Source of the DNA: an uncultured Sphingorhabdus sp.
GTDB taxonomy: Bacteria; Pseudomonadota; Alphaproteobacteria; Sphingomonadales; Sphingomonadaceae
Assembly: GCA_947492905.1 (NCBI GenBank)
Contig: CANLOL010000001.1
Coordinates: 1,218,578-1,282,577, forward strand
DNA length: 64,000 nucleotides
Direction: 5' to 3'
Shown: piece after piece, positions 4,208 to 41,911 of the stretch
How positions within the stretch are numbered: position 1 is the first letter of the stretch
How the letters are laid out: every line of letters starts with the position of its first letter
Notes under the pieces: model-generated
What the model saw: only the letters and a program-made list of their open reading frames with translations
Databases searched by the model: none
Told to the model about the DNA's origin: nothing
Position numbers and translations under genes: made by a program

Positions 4208-5620
4208 ATGGTAGCAGTAAAACAAGAAGGCTGGTCATCACGTACCGCCTTTATCTTAGCAGCAGTAGGTGCGGCCGTTGGTCTAGGTAACATATGGCGT
4301 TTTCCAACGCTTGCCGGTGAAAATGGCGGCGGCGCATTTGTACTTATCTATATTGCTTGTGTTGTTTTAATTGGTCTGCCTCTGGTTTTATCCGAAGTTT
4401 TGGTCGGCCGTAATGGCCGAACTGATGCCTATCATAGCGCTGAGAAATTGGCCACGGATTCCAATGTTAGCAAAGGCTGGGCTTCATTTGGCGGTATTGG
4501 GATTAGTGCAGCTTTCCTGATTCTTACGTTTTACAGTGTGGTCGCTGGATGGGTGCTATATTATGTCGGCGTTTTCATCGGTGATTTTTTCGGAAATTTA
4601 ACGTCTGGCGCTCCTTTTGCCGGTGCTTTAGCGGGTGAAACAGATATTCCAAAACGGATGACTGATTTGTTTGCGAATAATACATTATTATTATCCATGC
4701 ATACGATTTTCATGTTTTTGACCATCGCCATTGTTGCGCGCGGCGTGACCGATGGTATTGAAAAAGCGGCAACTTATTTGATGCCAACATTTTTTGTGCT
4801 GCTCGTATGTATCACTATTTATGGTGCTTTTGTGGGTGAATTTGGCAAAGCTATTGCCTTTCTTTTCACGCCTGATTTTTCAAAATTAAGCGCGAGCGTT
4901 GTCAATGAAGCGCTTGGTCAGGCTCTATTTTCCATGAGCGTGGGTAGCGCAGCGCTTATCACCTATGGTGCTTATGTTCCCAACGAAACCAAATTGGCGC
5001 CCACTGCTGGTATGATTGCATTTGCGGATACAGGCGTTGCTATTTTGGCTGGCCTGATGATTTTCCCAATTGTGTTCGCTGTTGGCCTTGATGCAGCGGC
5101 TGGCCCGACATTGGTGTTCCAATCTTTACCAATAGCATTCCAAACAATGCCCGCCGGGTCTTTTGTTGGTTTGCTATTCTTTGTGCTTATTTTCTTTGCA
5201 GCCCTTACTAGCTCGATCTCGCTGCTAGAGGCCGTTGTGGCATGGGCGATTAAGAAATTCCAATGCAGCCGCGCTATTGCGGCATGGGGCGTTGGCGGTG
5301 TAATCTTTTTGGTGGGCGTTGCTTGTGCGCTCTCGCTCAATATATGGAGCGAAGTTCGGATATTAGGGTTTTGGGGTATATTTGCCGATGCCAATATAAT
5401 GGATACGATTGATGGTTTTGTTGGCAAAGTATTGCTGCCCGTAGCGGCCTTAATCACGACCATATTCATTGGCTGGAAAGCGGATAAAAAGTTGGTGGAT
5501 GACCAAACGTCACTAAGCGGTGGTAAATTGGCTTTCTATCGTTTCTTAACGGCATGGATAAGCCCGATTGCGGTTAGCTTGATCCTTATCTTTGGATTAT
5601 TCCCAAGCTTATTAGCGTAA
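4208..5620 (+). CDS. Sodium:neurotransmitter symporter (NSS/SNF) family transporter
   Basis: A 470-residue multi-helix membrane protein. Its N terminus carries the NSS signature GWSSRTAFILAAVGAAVGLGNIWRFP followed by ENGGGAFVLIY, the unwound helix 1 that binds substrate and Na+ in LeuT-like proteins. Further hydrophobic segments continue to the C terminus. Family members import amino acids or similar amines with sodium; the substrate cannot be read from sequence. GGGAGAGAG precedes the ATG. The gene stands alone and converges on the MFS gene. Confidence 0.93.
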   Translation: MVAVKQEGWSSRTAFILAAVGAAVGLGNIWRFPTLAGENGGGAFVLIYIACVVLIGLPLVLSEVLVGRNGRTDAYHSAEKLATDSNVSKGWASFGGIGISAAFLILTFYSVVAGWVLYYVGVFIGDFFGNLTSGAPFAGALAGETDIPKRMTDLFANNTLLLSMHTIFMFLTIAIVARGVTDGIEKAATYLMPTFFVLLVCITIYGAFVGEFGKAIAFLFTPDFSKLSASVVNEALGQALFSMSVGSAALITYGAYVPNETKLAPTAGMIAFADTGVAILAGLMIFPIVFAVGLDAAAGPTLVFQSLPIAFQTMPAGSFVGLLFFVLIFFAALTSSISLLEAVVAWAIKKFQCSRAIAAWGVGGVIFLVGVACALSLNIWSEVRILGFWGIFADANIMDTIDGFVGKVLLPVAALITTIFIGWKADKKLVDDQTSLSGGKLAFYRFLTAWISPIAVSLILIFGLFPSLLA

Positions 5621-33813: not shown

Positions 33814-33850
33814 AAAACGGAGTATAGAGAGTGAAGCTATACCCCGTTTT
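33814..33850. terminator. Bidirectional terminator between hisF and the sigma/bufferin operon
   Basis: ACGGAGTATAG pairs with CTATACCCCGT with one mismatch. On the plus strand TTTT follows; on the minus strand seven T follow. It is placed between two converging operons and can serve both. Confidence 0.8.
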
Positions 33851-33887: not shown

Positions 33888-34523
33888 TTACCAGCGGATA
33901 AGGTGCGGTACTACCAAGCGGCCAACAACTGCTGAAGTTCCGATAGCGGCTGTGTACCAAACGCTGATATCCATAACGCTTGTAAATGGGCAGTGGAAAG
34001 AATAAGCGAATGCGCCTAAACCACCCGCTGCTAGGCCTGTAAGCCATCCAGCGCGTTCCAATGATGTTGGTGCGCCTTTACGAAGCCACAATACCATAGG
34101 AATGGCGGTGGCAGATGAAGCCGCTAAACACATTTTGAAGCAATACCAGCCAGTGTTAACCGTTACGGGCATATCTGCTGACATGGTTGAAATAGCAACG
34201 ATAAGAGCAGAGATAGGGAATAATAATGCTGCACCAACAGCCCATACCCAACCTTGGTTACCTTTGCCAACAGATGGCTGAGCCATATGCACTACAGCGC
34301 GAGCCGTTGCAAAGCCGAGCAGCAATAATACACCACCGCGCATCAATGTAATGGGAGCAGGAATACCTGCTGCTAGGTCAGAGCGCAGACCAAGCTGTGA
34401 TACGAATAGCGCAATAAAGGCGACTACTATCACGGCTGGAAGGGCGAGACCCTTGTTAATATTCATAGGTTTAACTGGTGTTAAATCATTCACCAAATCA
34501 TCTATGCTAAAATTCTTTTGCAT
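33888..34523 (-). CDS. nrsF: NrsF-like anti-sigma factor (DUF1109)
   Basis: A 211-residue inner-membrane protein with about six hydrophobic helices, matching DUF1109/NrsF. In Caulobacter NrsF holds the ECF factor SigF at the membrane and releases it in response to heavy metals through two conserved cysteines. Candidate cysteines here lie in the periplasm-facing segments GWYCFKMC and YSFHCPFT. The cytoplasmic N terminus (MQKNFSIDDLVNDLTPVKP) would bind the sigma factor. The start at 34523 follows GAG at good spacing and avoids overlap with the sigma gene. It is the last gene of the bufferin operon. Confidence 0.9.
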   Translation of the reverse strand: MQKNFSIDDLVNDLTPVKPMNINKGLALPAVIVVAFIALFVSQLGLRSDLAAGIPAPITLMRGGVLLLLGFATARAVVHMAQPSVGKGNQGWVWAVGAALLFPISALIVAISTMSADMPVTVNTGWYCFKMCLAASSATAIPMVLWLRKGAPTSLERAGWLTGLAAGGLGAFAYSFHCPFTSVMDISVWYTAAIGTSAVVGRLVVPHLIRW

Positions 34524-34542
34524 TGTTTTACTCACTTTCACT

Positions 34543-35067
34543 CTACTCACTTTCAATCAGTGTCGCTAATTTTTTCAATCCTCTATGGACATTCACTTTT
34601 ACTAGTGACTCTGATTGACCAGTTTTGTCACTTGTCTCGGCTATACTATAGCCTTCAACCTTTACCAATTGGATAACTTCTGCTTGTTTTTCTGGTAGCA
34701 TCGTTAACAATCGGTCTATCGATATTTTTGCACCAACAACATCTTCATGGCCTTCTTCGGCTATATCAAAATCTAGTGTTCCGGCCTGGTGCTTATATGT
34801 TTGGCGTAATTTATCGACCCAACGATAACGAGCAATAGCGGCGATCCATGGCAAATAAGCCCTTGTAGGATCAAAGCTGTCCCGTTTGCGGTGCAGCGAT
34901 ATTAAAGTCTCTTGAATGAGATCATCAATGGCATCATTCGATATTTTATTCGAAAAATATCGGCTCAACCAACGCCCTGTTTGCTCTAAAAGCACAGAGT
35001 AAGACTGTTTGTCTCCACCCTGCGCCCTTATCATCAGGTTCTTTAATGTCTCTTCATTTGCTATCAT
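34543..35067 (-). CDS. sigF: ECF RNA polymerase sigma factor, SigF type
   Basis: A 174-residue extracytoplasmic-function sigma factor. Region 2 lies at about 20-90, with DDLIQETLISLHRKRDSFDPTRAYLPWIAAIARYRWVDKLRQ. Region 4 lies at about 115-170, with LPEKQAEVIQLVKVEGYSIAETSDKTGQSESLVKVNVHRGLKKL. Pairing with a DUF1109 anti-sigma factor matches the ECF16/SigF group of Caulobacter. The gene overlaps doxX by four bases and precedes nrsF. The matching GTAACC-N16-CGAA promoter ahead of bufA1 means it should drive its own operon. Confidence 0.93.
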   Translation of the reverse strand: MIANEETLKNLMIRAQGGDKQSYSVLLEQTGRWLSRYFSNKISNDAIDDLIQETLISLHRKRDSFDPTRAYLPWIAAIARYRWVDKLRQTYKHQAGTLDFDIAEEGHEDVVGAKISIDRLLTMLPEKQAEVIQLVKVEGYSIAETSDKTGQSESLVKVNVHRGLKKLATLIESE

Positions 35068-35510
35068 GGGCGGTTTCTCGTTAATAGTGCATCAAGACTG
35101 ATAACACCGCCACCGCGACTAATCAATATTAATGCTAGGGCTGTCCAAAACATATGAACTGTACCCCATGCTTCAGGAAATACTAAAAATTGAATAACCA
35201 TAGTCATTACAAATAATCCAGAAGCAGCAAAGCGTGTAAATAGCCCAATCACCAATAATATTGGCAGAAAATGCTCAGCATACATTGTTATAGGGGCTAA
35301 TGAAGCTGGCATACCAAATTCATTTTCAAACAATATTGGCTGAATTTCGTTCATTGTAAGCAATGTGCCTTCTTCAACCTTTGTACGAGCAGAACTCCAA
35401 AATGGGAATGCTAGGGCACAACGGACAAATAAAAGTACGAGGGATTCTCCGAACTTACTGGCTAAAAATCCAGTAATTTGGTCATATAGTGCGGTAATTT
35501 TATTCAACAT
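35064..35510 (-). CDS. DoxX-family membrane protein of the bufferin operon
   Basis: A 148-residue protein with four predicted helices and the DoxX layout: FVRCALAFPFWSSARTKVEEGTL near the start, then YAEHFLPILLVIGLFTRFAASGLFVMTMVIQF and WTALALILISRGGGVISLDALL. DoxX proteins are a recurring member of DUF692/DUF2063 bufferin and gig-type metal operons. The molecular role is not settled; quinone or thiol redox work at the membrane has been suggested for the family. It lies 12 bases after bufC and overlaps sigF. Confidence 0.9.
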   Translation of the reverse strand: MLNKITALYDQITGFLASKFGESLVLLFVRCALAFPFWSSARTKVEEGTLLTMNEIQPILFENEFGMPASLAPITMYAEHFLPILLVIGLFTRFAASGLFVMTMVIQFLVFPEAWGTVHMFWTALALILISRGGGVISLDALLTRNRP

Positions 35511-35522
35511 ATTAAATCCTTA

Positions 35523-36263
35523 TTATGTATCCACGCATATCAACGCGCCGGCACCAATGATCGTTAAAAGTGGCTGCAATGGATTGTTCATATCTCCCTG
35601 TTCGGTAGCAATTGCTAAAAGGTTACCCATAGGTGTTTTTAATTCTGATTCTTTCAATAGTTTTGCAGTTATGGCGTCAATTGGCAATAGCTTCACCTCT
35701 GAATCGGGGCGTGTTACCAAGATACTATGCGGATTATCCAATATTTCGCTTAATTCGCTCAATGGCTCAGCAAGATTTGCCTGTAATATTATGATTTGAA
35801 CCGCTGGATGCAGCGCAACATTTTGCGCTGTTAATGTTTCTTCGTCAAATTGCGATAATTGTTCTAATGATAATGGCTCAGCTTCTGCAGCGTTATAACT
35901 ATCTAGCCATGCCCATTCTATGGCGGCCAAATCGGCAATCTCTGGGGCACATGTTGGACGGATAAATTTTTCAAAACCTATGCCCAATTGGCTATTATCA
36001 TGCATTTTAACATGGTCTAGCTCAACATATTCACGGGTTAAATCATTGAAAATATCTTCGCCCATTGCCTCGCGGGTCATTGGGAATGTTTCTTCTAATG
36101 CAATCAAACGCGCATGCGATATTGTGTTGGCATGGGCTTTTAATCCGAGCATCACCCTATCTATAGGGCCATCGAATAAATCGGGATCAAGCGCATTTGG
36201 CCCTTGGTTGATCGTATCAATGAAATTATTTTGGCCGTCTTCAAATATAGATTTAGGCGGCAT
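35523..36263 (-). CDS. bufC: BufC/HvfC-type partner protein (DUF2063)
   Basis: A 246-residue protein. The N-terminal part (about 1-115) is like the DUF2063 domain: a helical region with ALEETFPMTREAMGEDIFNDLTREYVELDHVKMHDNSQLGIGFEKFI. The C-terminal half (LHPAVQIIILQANLAEPLSELSE, then HSILVTRPDSEVKLLPID) fits the peptide-recognition region of the MbnC/HvfC family. Such proteins bind the precursor leader and present it to the DUF692 enzyme. It overlaps bufB by 11 bases, consistent with a stoichiometric complex. Confidence 0.88.
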   Translation of the reverse strand: MPPKSIFEDGQNNFIDTINQGPNALDPDLFDGPIDRVMLGLKAHANTISHARLIALEETFPMTREAMGEDIFNDLTREYVELDHVKMHDNSQLGIGFEKFIRPTCAPEIADLAAIEWAWLDSYNAAEAEPLSLEQLSQFDEETLTAQNVALHPAVQIIILQANLAEPLSELSEILDNPHSILVTRPDSEVKLLPIDAITAKLLKESELKTPMGNLLAIATEQGDMNNPLQPLLTIIGAGALICVDT

Positions 36264-37197
36264 TATGATGGACTCTGGCTTTGCTAAGCGTGCGTTCAGA
36301 AGATTGGTTGGATGCGGATATCATAGCAGAATTATGCGCAATATCTATCACATCGCGGGCTTTTTGCACTTCAGCCATTAAAATATCATAGGATGGAATA
36401 TCAGTATCCCATTCGATCAAAACTGGCTTCGGCCCAGATTTGGATATGAAGCGTTCGAATAATTTCCAAGTGAAGTCGGTAACAGGGCTGCCATGATTAT
36501 CAATGCGCAGCGGGCCGCTATCATGATCTTCTATAGCGTGGCCAGCCAAATGCATTTCGCCAACCCAATCGGGGTTAATAGCATCAATATAGGTTTCGCA
36601 ATCTTCACCGAGATTTTTGCAGGATACTTCGACATTATTGACATCAAAGATGATACCGCAACCGGTTTTGCTAACCATGCGTTCGATAAATTCAATTTCG
36701 CTCATTTCATTGCCCCGATATTCCAAATAGCGTGACGGGTTTTCAATCAACATTGGCCGCTTTAAGCGCGTTTGCACAATATCAATTTGCTTGCAGAAAT
36801 GATCGAGCGATTCTTGCGTGTAAATAACGGGTAATAAATCGGCAAAGCGGTCATGAGCATTGCCGCTAAAGCTAAGATGATCAGAGACGCTCGCGGCGTC
36901 ATAACGTTCGCACAATGATGCGATTTTTTCTAAATCATGCTGGTTTAAACCATCTGCACTGCCCAGCGATAATCCAACCGAGTGAAAGCTGATGGGGTAA
37001 GATTCAGAAATGGCGGCCAACCACTTATGCGGAGGACCACCATCACCGAAATAATTTTGAGGATGTACCTCTAACCAGCCCGCTGGAGCAATATGATCCG
37101 GTTCGTCTTGATCGGAAAGGGAGGGGTGATCAAGTACAGTTTGGAAATGTTCTGGTTTAAGTCCGATACCAACGAGGGGGGGAAGTGTATTAAGCAT
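36253..37197 (-). CDS. bufB: MNIO-family (DUF692) peptide-modifying iron oxidase
   Basis: A 314-residue TIM-barrel enzyme of the multinuclear non-heme iron-dependent oxidase family (MbnB, TglH, ChrH). Visible candidate metal ligands follow the family pattern: H72 in SFHSVGLSLGS, H107 in SDHLSF, E152/N153 in IENPSRYLEY, D185 and N187/N188 in DVNNVEVS, H217 in GEMHLAGH, D233/H235 in RIDNHGSPV and E262. These enzymes use O2 to rebuild cysteines of a partner peptide into copper-binding heterocycles. With a DUF2282 precursor just upstream, BufB function in bufferin maturation is strongly indicated. Confidence 0.93.
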   Translation of the reverse strand: MLNTLPPLVGIGLKPEHFQTVLDHPSLSDQDEPDHIAPAGWLEVHPQNYFGDGGPPHKWLAAISESYPISFHSVGLSLGSADGLNQHDLEKIASLCERYDAASVSDHLSFSGNAHDRFADLLPVIYTQESLDHFCKQIDIVQTRLKRPMLIENPSRYLEYRGNEMSEIEFIERMVSKTGCGIIFDVNNVEVSCKNLGEDCETYIDAINPDWVGEMHLAGHAIEDHDSGPLRIDNHGSPVTDFTWKLFERFISKSGPKPVLIEWDTDIPSYDILMAEVQKARDVIDIAHNSAMISASNQSSERTLSKARVHHNAA

Positions 37198-37258
37198 CGG
37201 AATTATATATCACAGATCATTATATTACCCAAATGGGCGGTTAGAAATCTTCAAAAAT

Positions 37259-37543
37259 TTATTTTTTTGCTACAGGCTTCTTATTGCCTTTGCGAGCTTT
37301 CAAAGAACCACCTTGCTTAACGCATGTGCCTTTGTTTACATATTTCCAAGCATTGCCTTGGTAATCAACAGTTGAAGTACCAGCACATGAAGTACCTGGA
37401 CCAGCTGCACAGTCATTTTTGCCTTTCAAAGAAATGCCATAGCATTTTTCTTTTGAGCTTTGTGCTACTGCTGGGGCTGATGCTAAACCAGCTGCTGCTG
37501 CTAGTGCTGCTGCTGCTGCGGTTGCTTTAATTAAATTGCTCAT
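37259..37543 (-). CDS. bufA1: Bufferin precursor peptide, DUF2282 (BufA1) type
   Basis: A 94-residue precursor. Residues 1-28 form a long Ala-rich signal peptide ending AVAQ, so the product is periplasmic. The mature part carries four cysteines, C34 (EKCYG), C45 (KNDCAAG), C53 ([10 protein letters not shown]) and C74 (NKGTCVKQ), matching the DUF2282 pattern EKC...KNDC...SCAGTS...WK.V.KGTC. In bufferins the middle cysteines are converted by the MNIO enzyme into copper-chelating heterocycles. A lysine-rich tail follows. The start at 37543 has AAAGGA seven bases upstream, better than an ATG two codons earlier. Confidence 0.92.
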
Positions 37544-37624
37544 AATCATATCCTTTGTAATATAATATTTTATTTTAAAAAACTTTGATCGAGAACCAAG
37601 TAGGAGGTTGGTTTCATAATGGAG

Positions 37625-37650
37625 TTCGTGTGAACCCATATATTGGTTAC
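37625..37650 (-). promoter_or_regulatory. SigF (ECF) promoter of the bufferin operon
   Basis: On the minus strand GTAACC (37650-37645) is followed by exactly 16 bases and CGAA (37628-37625). This is the GTAACC-N16-CGAA consensus I recall for Caulobacter SigF. It lies about 80 bases before the bufA1 start. Because sigF and nrsF are the last genes of this operon, the promoter would give positive autoregulation. Confidence 0.8.
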
Positions 37651-40130: not shown

Positions 40131-40409
40131 CTAGCTTTTAACCTTCTCCAATAGGTCGAGAAGTTCATCAATTTTCTTGCTTTGATCATTCGCATCGTCG
40201 GAATTAATAGCGTCTGTTACGCAAGTAGAGACATGATCTTTTAATATCTGACTTTCAACTCTGACTAGTGCAGCTTTAATGGCTTGCATTTGATTTAATA
40301 TATCAATGCAATAACGCCCATTCTCTATCATGGAAGCCACGCCACGCACTTGCCCTTCTATGCGACTTAATCTGTTCAATTTGTCTTTATGTTTGACATT
40401 AGCTGTCAT
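40131..40409 (-). CDS. csoR: CsoR-type copper-sensing repressor
   Basis: A 92-residue protein of the CsoR/RcnR/FrmR family of all-helical DNA-binding repressors. The N terminus KLNRLSRIEGQVRGVASMIENGRYC is diagnostic. Metal ligands C34, H59 and C63 have exactly the 25- and 4-residue spacing of the Cu(I) triad (C36/H61/C65) of Mycobacterium CsoR, so Cu(I) sensing is favoured over nickel, formaldehyde or persulfide sensing. It is divergent from three secreted or membrane proteins, with a palindromic CsoR-like box between. Confidence 0.9.
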   Translation of the reverse strand: MTANVKHKDKLNRLSRIEGQVRGVASMIENGRYCIDILNQMQAIKAALVRVESQILKDHVSTCVTDAINSDDANDQSKKIDELLDLLEKVKS

Positions 40410-40425
40410 GTGTTATAGCCCTTAA

Positions 40426-40444
40426 TATACCCTATGGGGGTATA
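40426..40444. promoter_or_regulatory. CsoR operator
   Basis: TATACCC-TATGG-GGGTATA, a palindrome with seven-base arms and the G/C tract typical of CsoR boxes. It lies 17 bases upstream of csoR and 45 bases before the divergent gene, so the repressor should control both directions. Confidence 0.8.
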
Positions 40445-40488
40445 GTATTTATGAATTTATCGTTGGTATCTTATCAGATAGGTATGTG

Positions 40489-41136
40489 ATGCAAAATAAT
40501 AAAATTTATCATTATATAATGCTTATTGCATCAATGTGTTTATCCGTTGCTGTTTCTAATAGCGCTTACGCTCAGCAATTAAGCTATCCTGATGGACAAA
40601 CATTGGTCATACAAAATGATGGCCCCGTGCATTCAGCGCAATTTAATTATTCATTACGCGATGATCTGGCTGTTGGAGTGTTCAGTGAATTTGTTGATGG
40701 TCCTGATAGTGTCTTCGTTGGTGGGCAAATCACATATTTATTAAAGCGTGTGGTTGGCGATAAAAGTCAATTTAATGCCATAGTTTCGGGCGGCGCTGGA
40801 CATATTAGCGGGCCTGTAGATGGAGCATCAGGATTTATACAGATTTCAGGCGATTATGCTTCACGCCGTATGTTTACATCCTATGCAATCCGCAGTCGCT
40901 TTACCGAAGGAGCTGAGACTGCATTGCGGCAGACAGCTCGTTTTGGGGTTAGTCCTTTTTTAGCAAAAAGCAAAAAGATACAACCTTTTGTCGCTATTCA
41001 AGTCGATAGATTTGATGGGCCAAACGATCGTTGGCGAGCCACACCATTTGTCCGATTAATAAAAGGAGGTGCTGTGGCTGAATTTGGCGTGAATACCGAC
41101 GGGGGCGTTATGGCAAATTTAGTGTTTTTGTTTTAA
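40489..41136 (+). CDS. Secreted protein, probably an outer-membrane beta-barrel
   Basis: A 215-residue protein with a signal peptide (to about residue 29, ending NSAYAQ). The mature part alternates polar and hydrophobic residues with many glycines and aromatic turns (HSAQFNYSLRDDLAVGVFSEF, FVGGQITYLL, FNAIVSGGAGHISGP, FIQISGDYASRRMFTSYAIRSRF). It ends in F, as outer-membrane barrels often do. I do not recognise the family. The start at 40489 has AGG six bases upstream. It begins the operon controlled by the CsoR box, so a part in metal passage across the outer membrane is inferred. Confidence 0.7.
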   Translation: MQNNKIYHYIMLIASMCLSVAVSNSAYAQQLSYPDGQTLVIQNDGPVHSAQFNYSLRDDLAVGVFSEFVDGPDSVFVGGQITYLLKRVVGDKSQFNAIVSGGAGHISGPVDGASGFIQISGDYASRRMFTSYAIRSRFTEGAETALRQTARFGVSPFLAKSKKIQPFVAIQVDRFDGPNDRWRATPFVRLIKGGAVAEFGVNTDGGVMANLVFLF

Positions 41137-41174
41137 TTTAATAATCGATATTATATAATCAAAGGAATTGAGAA

Positions 41175-41492
41175 ATGAAAAAAATAATCTTGAGCATATT
41201 CATTATGACGGGGTTGGTTGGCAGTCCATTCATACAATCATCAGCAGAAGCACAAACGGCTCCTAAAAGTCAGAACATCACGGTTAAAGTTAAGGGTTTA
41301 TTTTGTGATTTATGCCGCGTGAAAATGCAAAAATCATTCAAGAAAAACAAATCTGTACAGTCAGTTAGTGTAAATCTTGATAGTGGTATTGTAATATTAA
41401 AATTAAAAGCTGGTGGTTCGATTTCTGACGCTACGATCAAAAAAATTGTCACCGATACGGGATATACGCCATTGTCGATTAAACGGTCATAA
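41175..41492 (+). CDS. Periplasmic heavy-metal-associated (HMA) domain protein, MerP-like
   Basis: A 105-residue protein with a signal peptide (MKKIILSIFIMTGLVGS...SSAEAQ) and one HMA ferredoxin-like domain, about 35-103. The metal site is the CxxC of GLFCDLCRVKM; the usual GMxCxxC methionine is replaced by leucine. The C-terminal half (VQSVSVNLDSGIVILKL, then IVTDTGYTPLSI) fits the fold. It should shuttle a soft metal such as Cu(I) or Hg(II) through the periplasm to the adjacent membrane protein. The MerT-like gene begins three bases after its stop. Confidence 0.88.
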   Translation: MKKIILSIFIMTGLVGSPFIQSSAEAQTAPKSQNITVKVKGLFCDLCRVKMQKSFKKNKSVQSVSVNLDSGIVILKLKAGGSISDATIKKIVTDTGYTPLSIKRS

Positions 41493-41494
41493 AT

Positions 41495-41911
41495 GTGAGT
41501 GAGCAAGCTGTAAGAGATTTAGAAAACCAGCCTAATTTCTCTATGCGCGAATTTATTGCGCCCTCATTATCTCTATTCACCAGCGCAGGAACGCTAATAT
41601 GTTGTGCACTGCCAGCTTTGTTCGTAACAATTGGTGCTGGAGCAGCTTTGGCTGGGTTAACCAGTGCATTTCCTGCACTAATTTGGCTTTCTCGTTATAA
41701 AATTTATATATTTATATTCGCCGCTGTGATGCTGGCCATTGCGGGCTATATGCAATGGCGTGCTCGTTATTTACCATGCCCTGCTGATCCATTGCTAGCT
41801 AAGTCCTGCATGCGGATGCGTCGTTTCAGCCTTTGGGTTTATATTATCGCACTTATTTTATATTTGGTAGGGGCATTTTTTGCCTTTCTAGCTCCAAAGT
41901 TATTGGTTTGA
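41495..41911 (+). CDS. MerT-like inner-membrane metal transporter
   Basis: A 138-residue protein with three or four hydrophobic segments. The first helix carries a vicinal cysteine pair in TLICCALPALFVTIGAGAA, the hallmark of MerT-type mercuric transporters. A second pair of cysteines occurs in the loop CPADPLLAKSC. It begins with GTG at 41495. No MerA reductase or MerR is present and the unit is controlled by a CsoR-type box, so copper rather than mercury is the likely cargo. Direction of transport is not readable. Confidence 0.82.
   Translation: MSEQAVRDLENQPNFSMREFIAPSLSLFTSAGTLICCALPALFVTIGAGAALAGLTSAFPALIWLSRYKIYIFIFAAVMLAIAGYMQWRARYLPCPADPLLAKSCMRMRRFSLWVYIIALILYLVGAFFAFLAPKLLV

Follow-up and report, generated by a model that had tools for sequence, protein, structure and literature searches.

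A Buf1-type bufferin operon with its own sigma factor/anti-sigma factor pair and a sigma-F-type motif inside bufC in a Sphingorhabdus-like sphingomonad

We analyzed a stretch of 64,000 nucleotides (the window) that forms part of contig C1 in the 2.59 Mb genome of an uncultured Sphingorhabdus sp. and found on its minus strand six consecutive genes, bufA-bufB-bufC-doxX-sigF-nrsF, which form a Buf1-type bufferin operon. Very probably, this operon of a Sphingorhabdus-like sphingomonad is under the control of a sigma-F/NrsF circuit that acts through two promoters. The name sigF is used here for a sigF-like gene encoding an extracytoplasmic function (ECF) sigma factor, and nrsF for that of its membrane anti-sigma factor. 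Two copies of the sigma-F-type motif GTAACC-N16-CGAA accompany the genes, one ahead of bufA (P1) and one within the reading frame of bufC (P2), and they strengthen the reading of an operon with its own sigma/anti-sigma pair. This kind of system is known, as Buf1 clusters with sigma factor and NrsF genes and the control of such clusters by sigma-F in Caulobacter have been published; what is new is the P2 motif inside bufC, ahead of doxX-sigF-nrsF, an unusual and well-supported regulatory detail whose activity as a promoter is proposed by analogy with relatives.

In the working that we propose, the ECF sigma factor would be held at the inner membrane by NrsF until copper or thiol-reactive metal stress, sensed via the conserved cysteines of NrsF, releases it. 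The freed sigma factor would then fire both P1 (bufABC-doxX-sigF-nrsF) and P2 (doxX-sigF-nrsF), BufB together with BufC would convert the central cysteines of BufA to thiooxazoles, and the exported BufA peptide would chelate periplasmic copper. P2 would supply DoxX, sigma factor, and anti-sigma factor separately from the peptide and its maturase, and the last position of nrsF would provide negative feedback. The reading of the motif by sigma-F, the metal signal, the cysteine modification, and the copper binding are all carried over from relatives.

P1 and P2 in a conserved operon

A search of the window for GTAACC-N15-17-CGAA returned two sites, both located in the operon and both with an N16 spacer, against 0.19 expected by chance; two sites were obtained in 1 of 100 shuffles. 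For comparison, 80 loci were retrieved with BufB patterns, which makes the sample a biased one, and 30 of them were assigned to the sphingomonad group (L020 to L048 and L082; L numbers denote loci, G numbers denote genomes of the family, and G000 is the genome of the window). The closest BufB relatives, 88% and 85% identical over the best segment, are labelled uncultured Sphingomonadaceae and Sphingorhabdus. The order bufA-bufB-bufC-doxX-sigF-nrsF, in one direction, is found in 28 of the 30 sphingomonad loci, and groES is on the locus, as in the window, in 26 of those 28. The remaining two are L045, in which bufC is cut by the end of the contig, and L046, in which bufC is complete and the contig continues, with a gene on the opposite strand in place of doxX. 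In several other loci (e.g., L049, L051, L081, L083, and L093), sigF-nrsF is divergent from bufA.

With L045 and L046 left out, 29 operons (that of the window and 28 others) were available for comparison of the motifs. P2 is exact in all 29, each of which has bufC and doxX. P1 is exact in 25, and a further three carry it with a single mismatch; in the one that remains, L039, the contig begins within bufA. Both motifs are exact in L047, from the culturable relative Parasphingorhabdus marina DSM 22363. L046, which lacks doxX, has an exact P1 and no P2, and the P2 motif was found in none of 48 control BufC loci, i.e., those not labelled sphingomonad. Judged by their flanks, the 29 operons fall into 26 clusters at 95% identity and 16 clusters at 80%. 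P2 would be a stress promoter overlaid on the gene of an enzyme partner and kept base for base across diverged sphingomonads.

Alternative explanations

P2 lies in frame with bufC, and the N, L, and E residues that it encodes are conserved themselves; it might therefore be no promoter at all, the GNLL..E stretch being kept for the function of BufC and the DNA motif being a by-product. We regard this as very improbable, since codon choice hardly varies where the motif bases fall but is unconstrained across the spacer. AAC and GAA are used in 29 of 29 operons, CTT is used in 28 of 29, and GGT is used in all 25 rows with glycine at the first position; the other four rows have CGT, AGT, or TGT, so that the residue changes (G, R, S, or C) while the GT pair stays constant. 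At codons five and six of the same stretch, which belong to the spacer, 12 and 18 different triplets occur. The median codon identity of the other conserved bufC columns is 0.60, and two of these columns, with 20 rows each, are likewise single-codon. In addition, the C termini of 12 of 12 control BufC proteins lack [GSRC]NLL, and the motif itself, as described above, is absent from the control loci and from the doxX-less L046. P2 is conserved beyond what the protein needs.

The purpose of P2 is harder to assign, and a second sample, consisting of 17 further MNIO stretches (L135 to L151) from genomes of the family, bears on it. sigF-nrsF lies downstream in the same direction in 11 of the 17, and an exact P2 is present at the equivalent position of bufC in nine of those 11 (one of the nine, L141, duplicates the DNA of L043). 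Of the other two, G077 carries an exact copy elsewhere in bufC, 227 nt from the end of the gene, and G108 has one mismatch each in P1 and P2. Among the six stretches outside the 11, no exact motif was found in G043, G097, G123, and G137, and exact copies of both P1 and P2 are present in the two bufABC-doxX operons with no sigF downstream (G001 and G095, in which the next long same-strand open reading frame [ORF] follows doxX after about 130 or 85 nt). In the sphingomonad clade, P2 goes with bufC-doxX whether sigF is present or not. Since P2 is kept without sigF and is absent from L046, which has neither doxX nor sigF, it may serve doxX first, and its presence without sigF limits any claim that autoregulation is its purpose. 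P2 could accordingly exist for doxX, the drive of sigF-nrsF being incidental and sigma factor levels coming mainly from P1 read-through or from an unseen basal promoter, as might be expected from Caulobacter, where doxX ends the bufferin operon and sigF-nrsF is transcribed separately, from a promoter that depends only in part on sigma-F (PMC3511200). In the window, however, doxX and sigF overlap by 4 nt, so P2 transcripts should include sigF-nrsF unless they are terminated, and we hold this explanation to be possible but somewhat unlikely. It is also conceivable, though in our view improbable, that the operon buffers a metal other than copper, such as cadmium, chromate, gold, or mercury: chromium and cadmium induce the Caulobacter sigF regulon (PMC3511200), metals other than copper are discussed in PMC12452194, and the neighborhood of the operon includes genes for an HMA-domain protein and a CsoR-like protein. 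Copper induces the Caulobacter sigF regulon as well (PMC8224329). Against this alternative, a sigF::Tn5 mutant of Caulobacter is copper sensitive, while a sigF mutant showed a similar sensitivity profile to chromate and cadmium (PMC8224329), and the Buf1 protein of Caulobacter chelates copper (PMC12452194).

In addition to the operons that keep P2 without sigF, several observations weigh against a sigma-F/NrsF circuit acting through two promoters. L054, labelled Proteobacteria and placed outside the sphingomonads, has the same co-directional gene order and no P2 in bufC. The naive synonymous probability calculated for P2 (log10 of -51.9, summed) treats related sequences as independent. Genome-wide, the N15-17 pattern occurs at 18 sites, fewer than the 67 of a reversed-pattern control, and only the placement of the motif, not its number, is non-random; moreover, there are five Sigma70_r4_2 matches in this genome, so another ECF factor could read some of the sites. 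Four NCBIfam models also scored below their cut-offs, namely, NrsF (65.9 of 300), HvfC (24.7 of 142), HvfX (41.1 of 80), and BufA2 (33.4 of 60), of which the missed BufA2 cut-off bears only on that NCBIfam model, as the Pfam family of the precursor is matched. The sigma-F/NrsF circuit that we favor makes bufferin autoregulation directly testable: recoding of the P2 motif with BufC unchanged would separate its two outputs.

Relation to known systems

Antoine et al. 2025 (PMC12452194) include sigma factor and NrsF domains among those encoded with bufferins, for clusters of the Buf1 type and not for those of the Buf2 type, and report that modification falls on the central cysteines of Buf1, the first and last being joined in a disulphide. 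The operon described here shares with those Buf1 clusters the core of precursor, MNIO, DUF2063 protein, and DoxX, the sigma factor and NrsF genes, and the four cysteines; in the main text of that paper, the word promoter is absent and lipoprotein is mentioned once, for Buf2. In Caulobacter, two clusters of this kind, along with a YedY gene, are controlled by sigma-F via GTAACC-N16-CGAA (Kohler et al. 2012; PMC3511200). The six gene families, the promoter consensus, and the two conserved NrsF cysteines are the same in the Caulobacter system (sigF-nrsF and CC3254-CC3257; PMC3511200, PMC8224329) as in the window, and methionine sulfoxide repair belongs to the regulon there (MsrPQ) as it is predicted to do here (an exported MsrA). 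The systems differ in that here sigF-nrsF closes the bufferin operon and a second motif lies inside bufC. Captophorins (EGKCG-type clusters, HvfABC; PMC13097082) likewise combine an MNIO with a DUF2063 partner, a thiooxazole on cysteine, and copper binding, the last two of which are predicted for our operon, but they have a precursor of another family, and the NCBIfam equivalog HvfB was not reached here (195.1 of 360), HvfC and HvfX being below their cut-offs as well.

Genes and coordinates

The original prediction had named a DUF2282 precursor, a DUF692-type MNIO enzyme, a DUF2063 partner, DoxX, an ECF sigma factor, and a DUF1109 (NrsF) anti-sigma factor, in this order on one strand with overlaps or short gaps; all six are present (33888 to 37543), and all six Pfam matches exceed their curated cut-offs (Table 1), including those of the four DUF families whose search had been proposed as a check. 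The presence of a dedicated ECF sigma/anti-sigma pair inside the operon was borne out by Pfam, NCBIfam, the loci of relatives, and the two motifs.

Table 1. Genes and promoter motifs of the bufferin operon, in window coordinates
Feature	Coordinates	Strand	Supporting match or position
P1, sigma-F-type motif GTAACC-N16-CGAA	37625..37650	-	107 nt before the bufA ATG
bufA, Buf1/DUF2282 precursor, 94 aa, four Cys	37259..37543	-	Pfam DUF2282, E 8.6e-24, 83.7 bits (cut-off 22.4)
bufB, MNIO maturase	36253..37197	-	Pfam MbnB_TglH_ChrH, E 3e-91; NCBIfam MNIO_BufB, 323.7 bits (cut-off 310)
bufC, DUF2063 partner protein	35523..36263	-	Pfam DUF2063, E 5.5e-7, 30.2 bits (cut-off 27.2)
P2, sigma-F-type motif GTAACC-N16-CGAA, in bufC frame, codons GNLLAIATE	35601..35626	-	116 nt before doxX
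doxX	35064..35510	-	Pfam DoxX, E 9e-14, 52.3 bits (cut-off 23.6)
ECF sigma factor gene (sigF-like)	34543..35067	-	Pfam Sigma70_r4_2, E 6e-14; Sigma70_r2, E 2.4e-9
nrsF, membrane anti-sigma factor (DUF1109 in the original prediction)	33888..34523	-	Pfam NrsF, E 2.3e-40, 139.1 bits

bufA and bufB are separated by 61 nt, bufB and bufC overlap by 11 nt, and bufC and doxX are separated by 12 nt; nrsF follows the sigma factor gene after 19 nt if it starts at ATG 34523 or overlaps it by 14 nt if the alternative start, TTG 34556, is used. A 131-aa ORF with a GTG start extends bufA upstream as far as 37654, but the likely ATG of bufA is at 37543. The N terminus of BufA, where Buf1 precursors carry a Sec signal peptide, is hydrophobic and ends in APAVAQ, as judged by eye. 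The operon may end at an inverted repeat with a following run of T, seen by eye on the minus strand beyond nrsF (about 33816 to 33848) and absent from the computed list. PADLOC returned no match for BufB, and a sigma-70 promoter scan of the operon was uninformative (15 found versus 12.7 expected).

Of the four BufA cysteines, three are present in every one of the 79 precursors aligned and the fourth in 78 of 79, in agreement with the four conserved cysteines that had been noted before. In the BufB alignment, His72, His107, Asp120, Glu152, Asp185, His216, Asp233, His235, and Glu262 are invariant in 79 of 79, which, at the level of the alignment, fits the claim that the MNIO enzyme retains all candidate iron ligands. 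For BufA the longest match per locus of at least 70 aa was aligned, and for BufB the minimum was 250 aa. Cys139 of NrsF is found in 38 of 38 homologues and Cys189 in 34 of 38 (numbering from the TTG start).

Overall, the earlier interpretation is partly supported. The interval that it gave, 33888 to 37650, contains the genes, but its upper limit is the edge of the P1 motif and not a gene end. The regulator genes are inside the operon as stated, and the terms metal-triggered and copper are carried over from relatives. The description of the system as self-contained is too narrow, as the exact motif also precedes other genes of this genome and a different contig encodes two more DUF2282 precursors that have no MNIO gene beside them.

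The motif elsewhere in the genome

With a minimum ORF length of 70 aa (90 aa in comparison genomes), seven of the eight N16 sites of this genome are located 52 to 116 nt before a same-strand ORF start, bufA being measured to its ATG, and the eighth is 223 nt upstream of a GST-like gene. All five N15 sites are 34 to 88 nt before an ORF, and none of the five N17 sites is so placed. The candidate genes at N16 sites encode an exported MsrA, YaaA, an exported TPR protein, and two exported glycine-rich proteins; those at N15 sites encode an ArsM-like methyltransferase, a radical SAM protein, an M48 peptidase, a YHS lipoprotein, and an outer-membrane barrel protein (export judged by eye in both groups). 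Sites with the N15 spacer may be read by another ECF factor. Two genomes of the same genus with no NrsF match have nine N15/N16 sites, none of them before a credible gene, the sole ORF start being that of a 108-aa frame antisense to a 494-aa frame. In G087, five of 14 sites are 35 to 104 nt before an ORF start, including that of an ArsM-like gene, and a sixth is P2. The motif also points to a small set of genes outside Caulobacter that are candidates for sigma-F control.

The ArsM-like and radical SAM genes of this genome have divergent GTAACC-N15-CGAA sites between them (G000 C1:394722-394833; L165, about 4723 to 4834). This radical SAM gene has weak similarity to ArsS, and the ArsM-like gene of G087 has an N16 site.

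A neighboring metal cluster

A second metal cluster (window positions 40131 to 41911) lies 2.6 kb from bufA, beyond groESL. The CsoR-like gene at 40131 to 40409 was considered as a part of the bufferin system and rejected, as its one match among the loci is the window itself, meaning that there is no conserved link; the cluster as a whole was not found on the loci of relatives. In it, this CsoR/RicR-like repressor gene (Cys-His-Cys by eye) is divergent from genes for three products: an exported protein with no Pfam match, an exported protein with an HMA domain, and a small membrane protein, MerT-like by eye and likewise without a Pfam match.

Lipobox-bearing Buf1 precursors away from MNIO genes

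The genome has one MNIO match, one NrsF match, and three DUF2282 matches. Two of the last are adjacent genes on the minus strand of contig C2 (L104, 8581-8934 and 8208-8525; G000 C2:70207-70933), flanked by an amtB-like gene and tgt, and no MNIO match was found on that contig. Their products have a lipobox (LAAC-G and LVSC-G), a linker, and a four-cysteine core, that of the first being close to BufA. As possible sigma-F targets the pair was rejected, since the 18-kb stretch lacks GTAACC-N14-18-CGAA altogether and neither gene is preceded within 200 nt by an N15/N16 site, even when two mismatches are allowed. G137, of the same genus, was likewise rejected as a source of the pair, its two DUF2282 genes adjoining an MNIO gene and having neither a lipobox nor the AAGPGTSC core.

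Among 149 genomes of the family, DUF2282 is found in 46, MNIO in 48, and NrsF in 74; at least 26 of the NrsF-bearing genomes have no MNIO match. All 70 DUF2282 places in this sample were examined at the sequence level, using as lipobox rule a simple pattern rather than a trained predictor and reading by eye the sequences missed by the rule. Nineteen of the 70 have no MNIO match within 6 kb on their own contig; they comprise 13 four-cysteine lipobox proteins, four of the soluble type (G073, G082 C28, G031, and G123 C22, where the places in G031 and G123 are close to the end of a contig or on a contig of 7.2 kb), and those of G051 and G128. Five further four-cysteine lipobox proteins are encoded inside MNIO clusters (G132, G077, G114, G022, and G082 C42), giving a total of 18 such precursors in 16 of the 149 genomes, and all 16 have an MNIO match, that of G022 being a fragment. 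From their lipoboxes, these Buf1 precursors are probably lipid anchored, and we refer to them as lipobufferins.

Unlinked lipobufferins occur in 11 genomes. In seven of these (G000, G087, G108, G023, G089, G001, and G095) the stretch analyzed includes a tgt signature, and in the other four none was found on 2.0 to 2.3 kb. G051 and G128 (L212 and L213) have DUF2282 with no MNIO match, again as a lipobox protein beside tgt, and their proteins have kept the first and last cysteines and lost both central, modifiable ones (G051 has NHGG...GTAR where others have NDC...TSC). The best match of the G051 protein outside its genus is the second orphan of the genome studied here (E 3.4e-16, 45% identity). 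G051 and G128 belong to one genus and therefore count as a single event; nevertheless, the loss of the central cysteines where MNIO is absent favors maturation in trans, with the cysteines kept for an MNIO acting from elsewhere. The exact N16 motif is upstream of five of the 13 unlinked lipobufferins (G089, G041, G121, G120, and G037), and eight have no exact motif (one of them, G108, has a site with two mismatches), so sigma-F control is not general for these genes.

We place at about even the chance of a two-compartment system, in which a soluble periplasmic bufferin encoded in cis and lipid-anchored lipobufferins would be modified by the same BufBC, the latter in trans, and the soluble branch would be tuned by the promoter in bufC. 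If so, the cell would capture copper at the membrane as well as in solution, and one MNIO gene would serve three precursors in this genome. Maturation of lipobufferins in trans is at present a lead, their modification being predicted from sequence. It bears on the question, left by PMC12452194, of whether precursors that stand alone are substrates of an enzyme from another locus, and this genome, with its single maturase gene, is a place to answer it.

A different arrangement was seen in L105, L108, L112, and L121, in which DUF2282-doxX-sigF-nrsF is divergent from an MNIO gene and a six-cysteine precursor that is Buf2-like by eye. These loci represent a Buf1/Buf2 mixture beside sigma/NrsF genes, whereas the regulators are reported in Buf1 and not in Buf2 clusters in PMC12452194.

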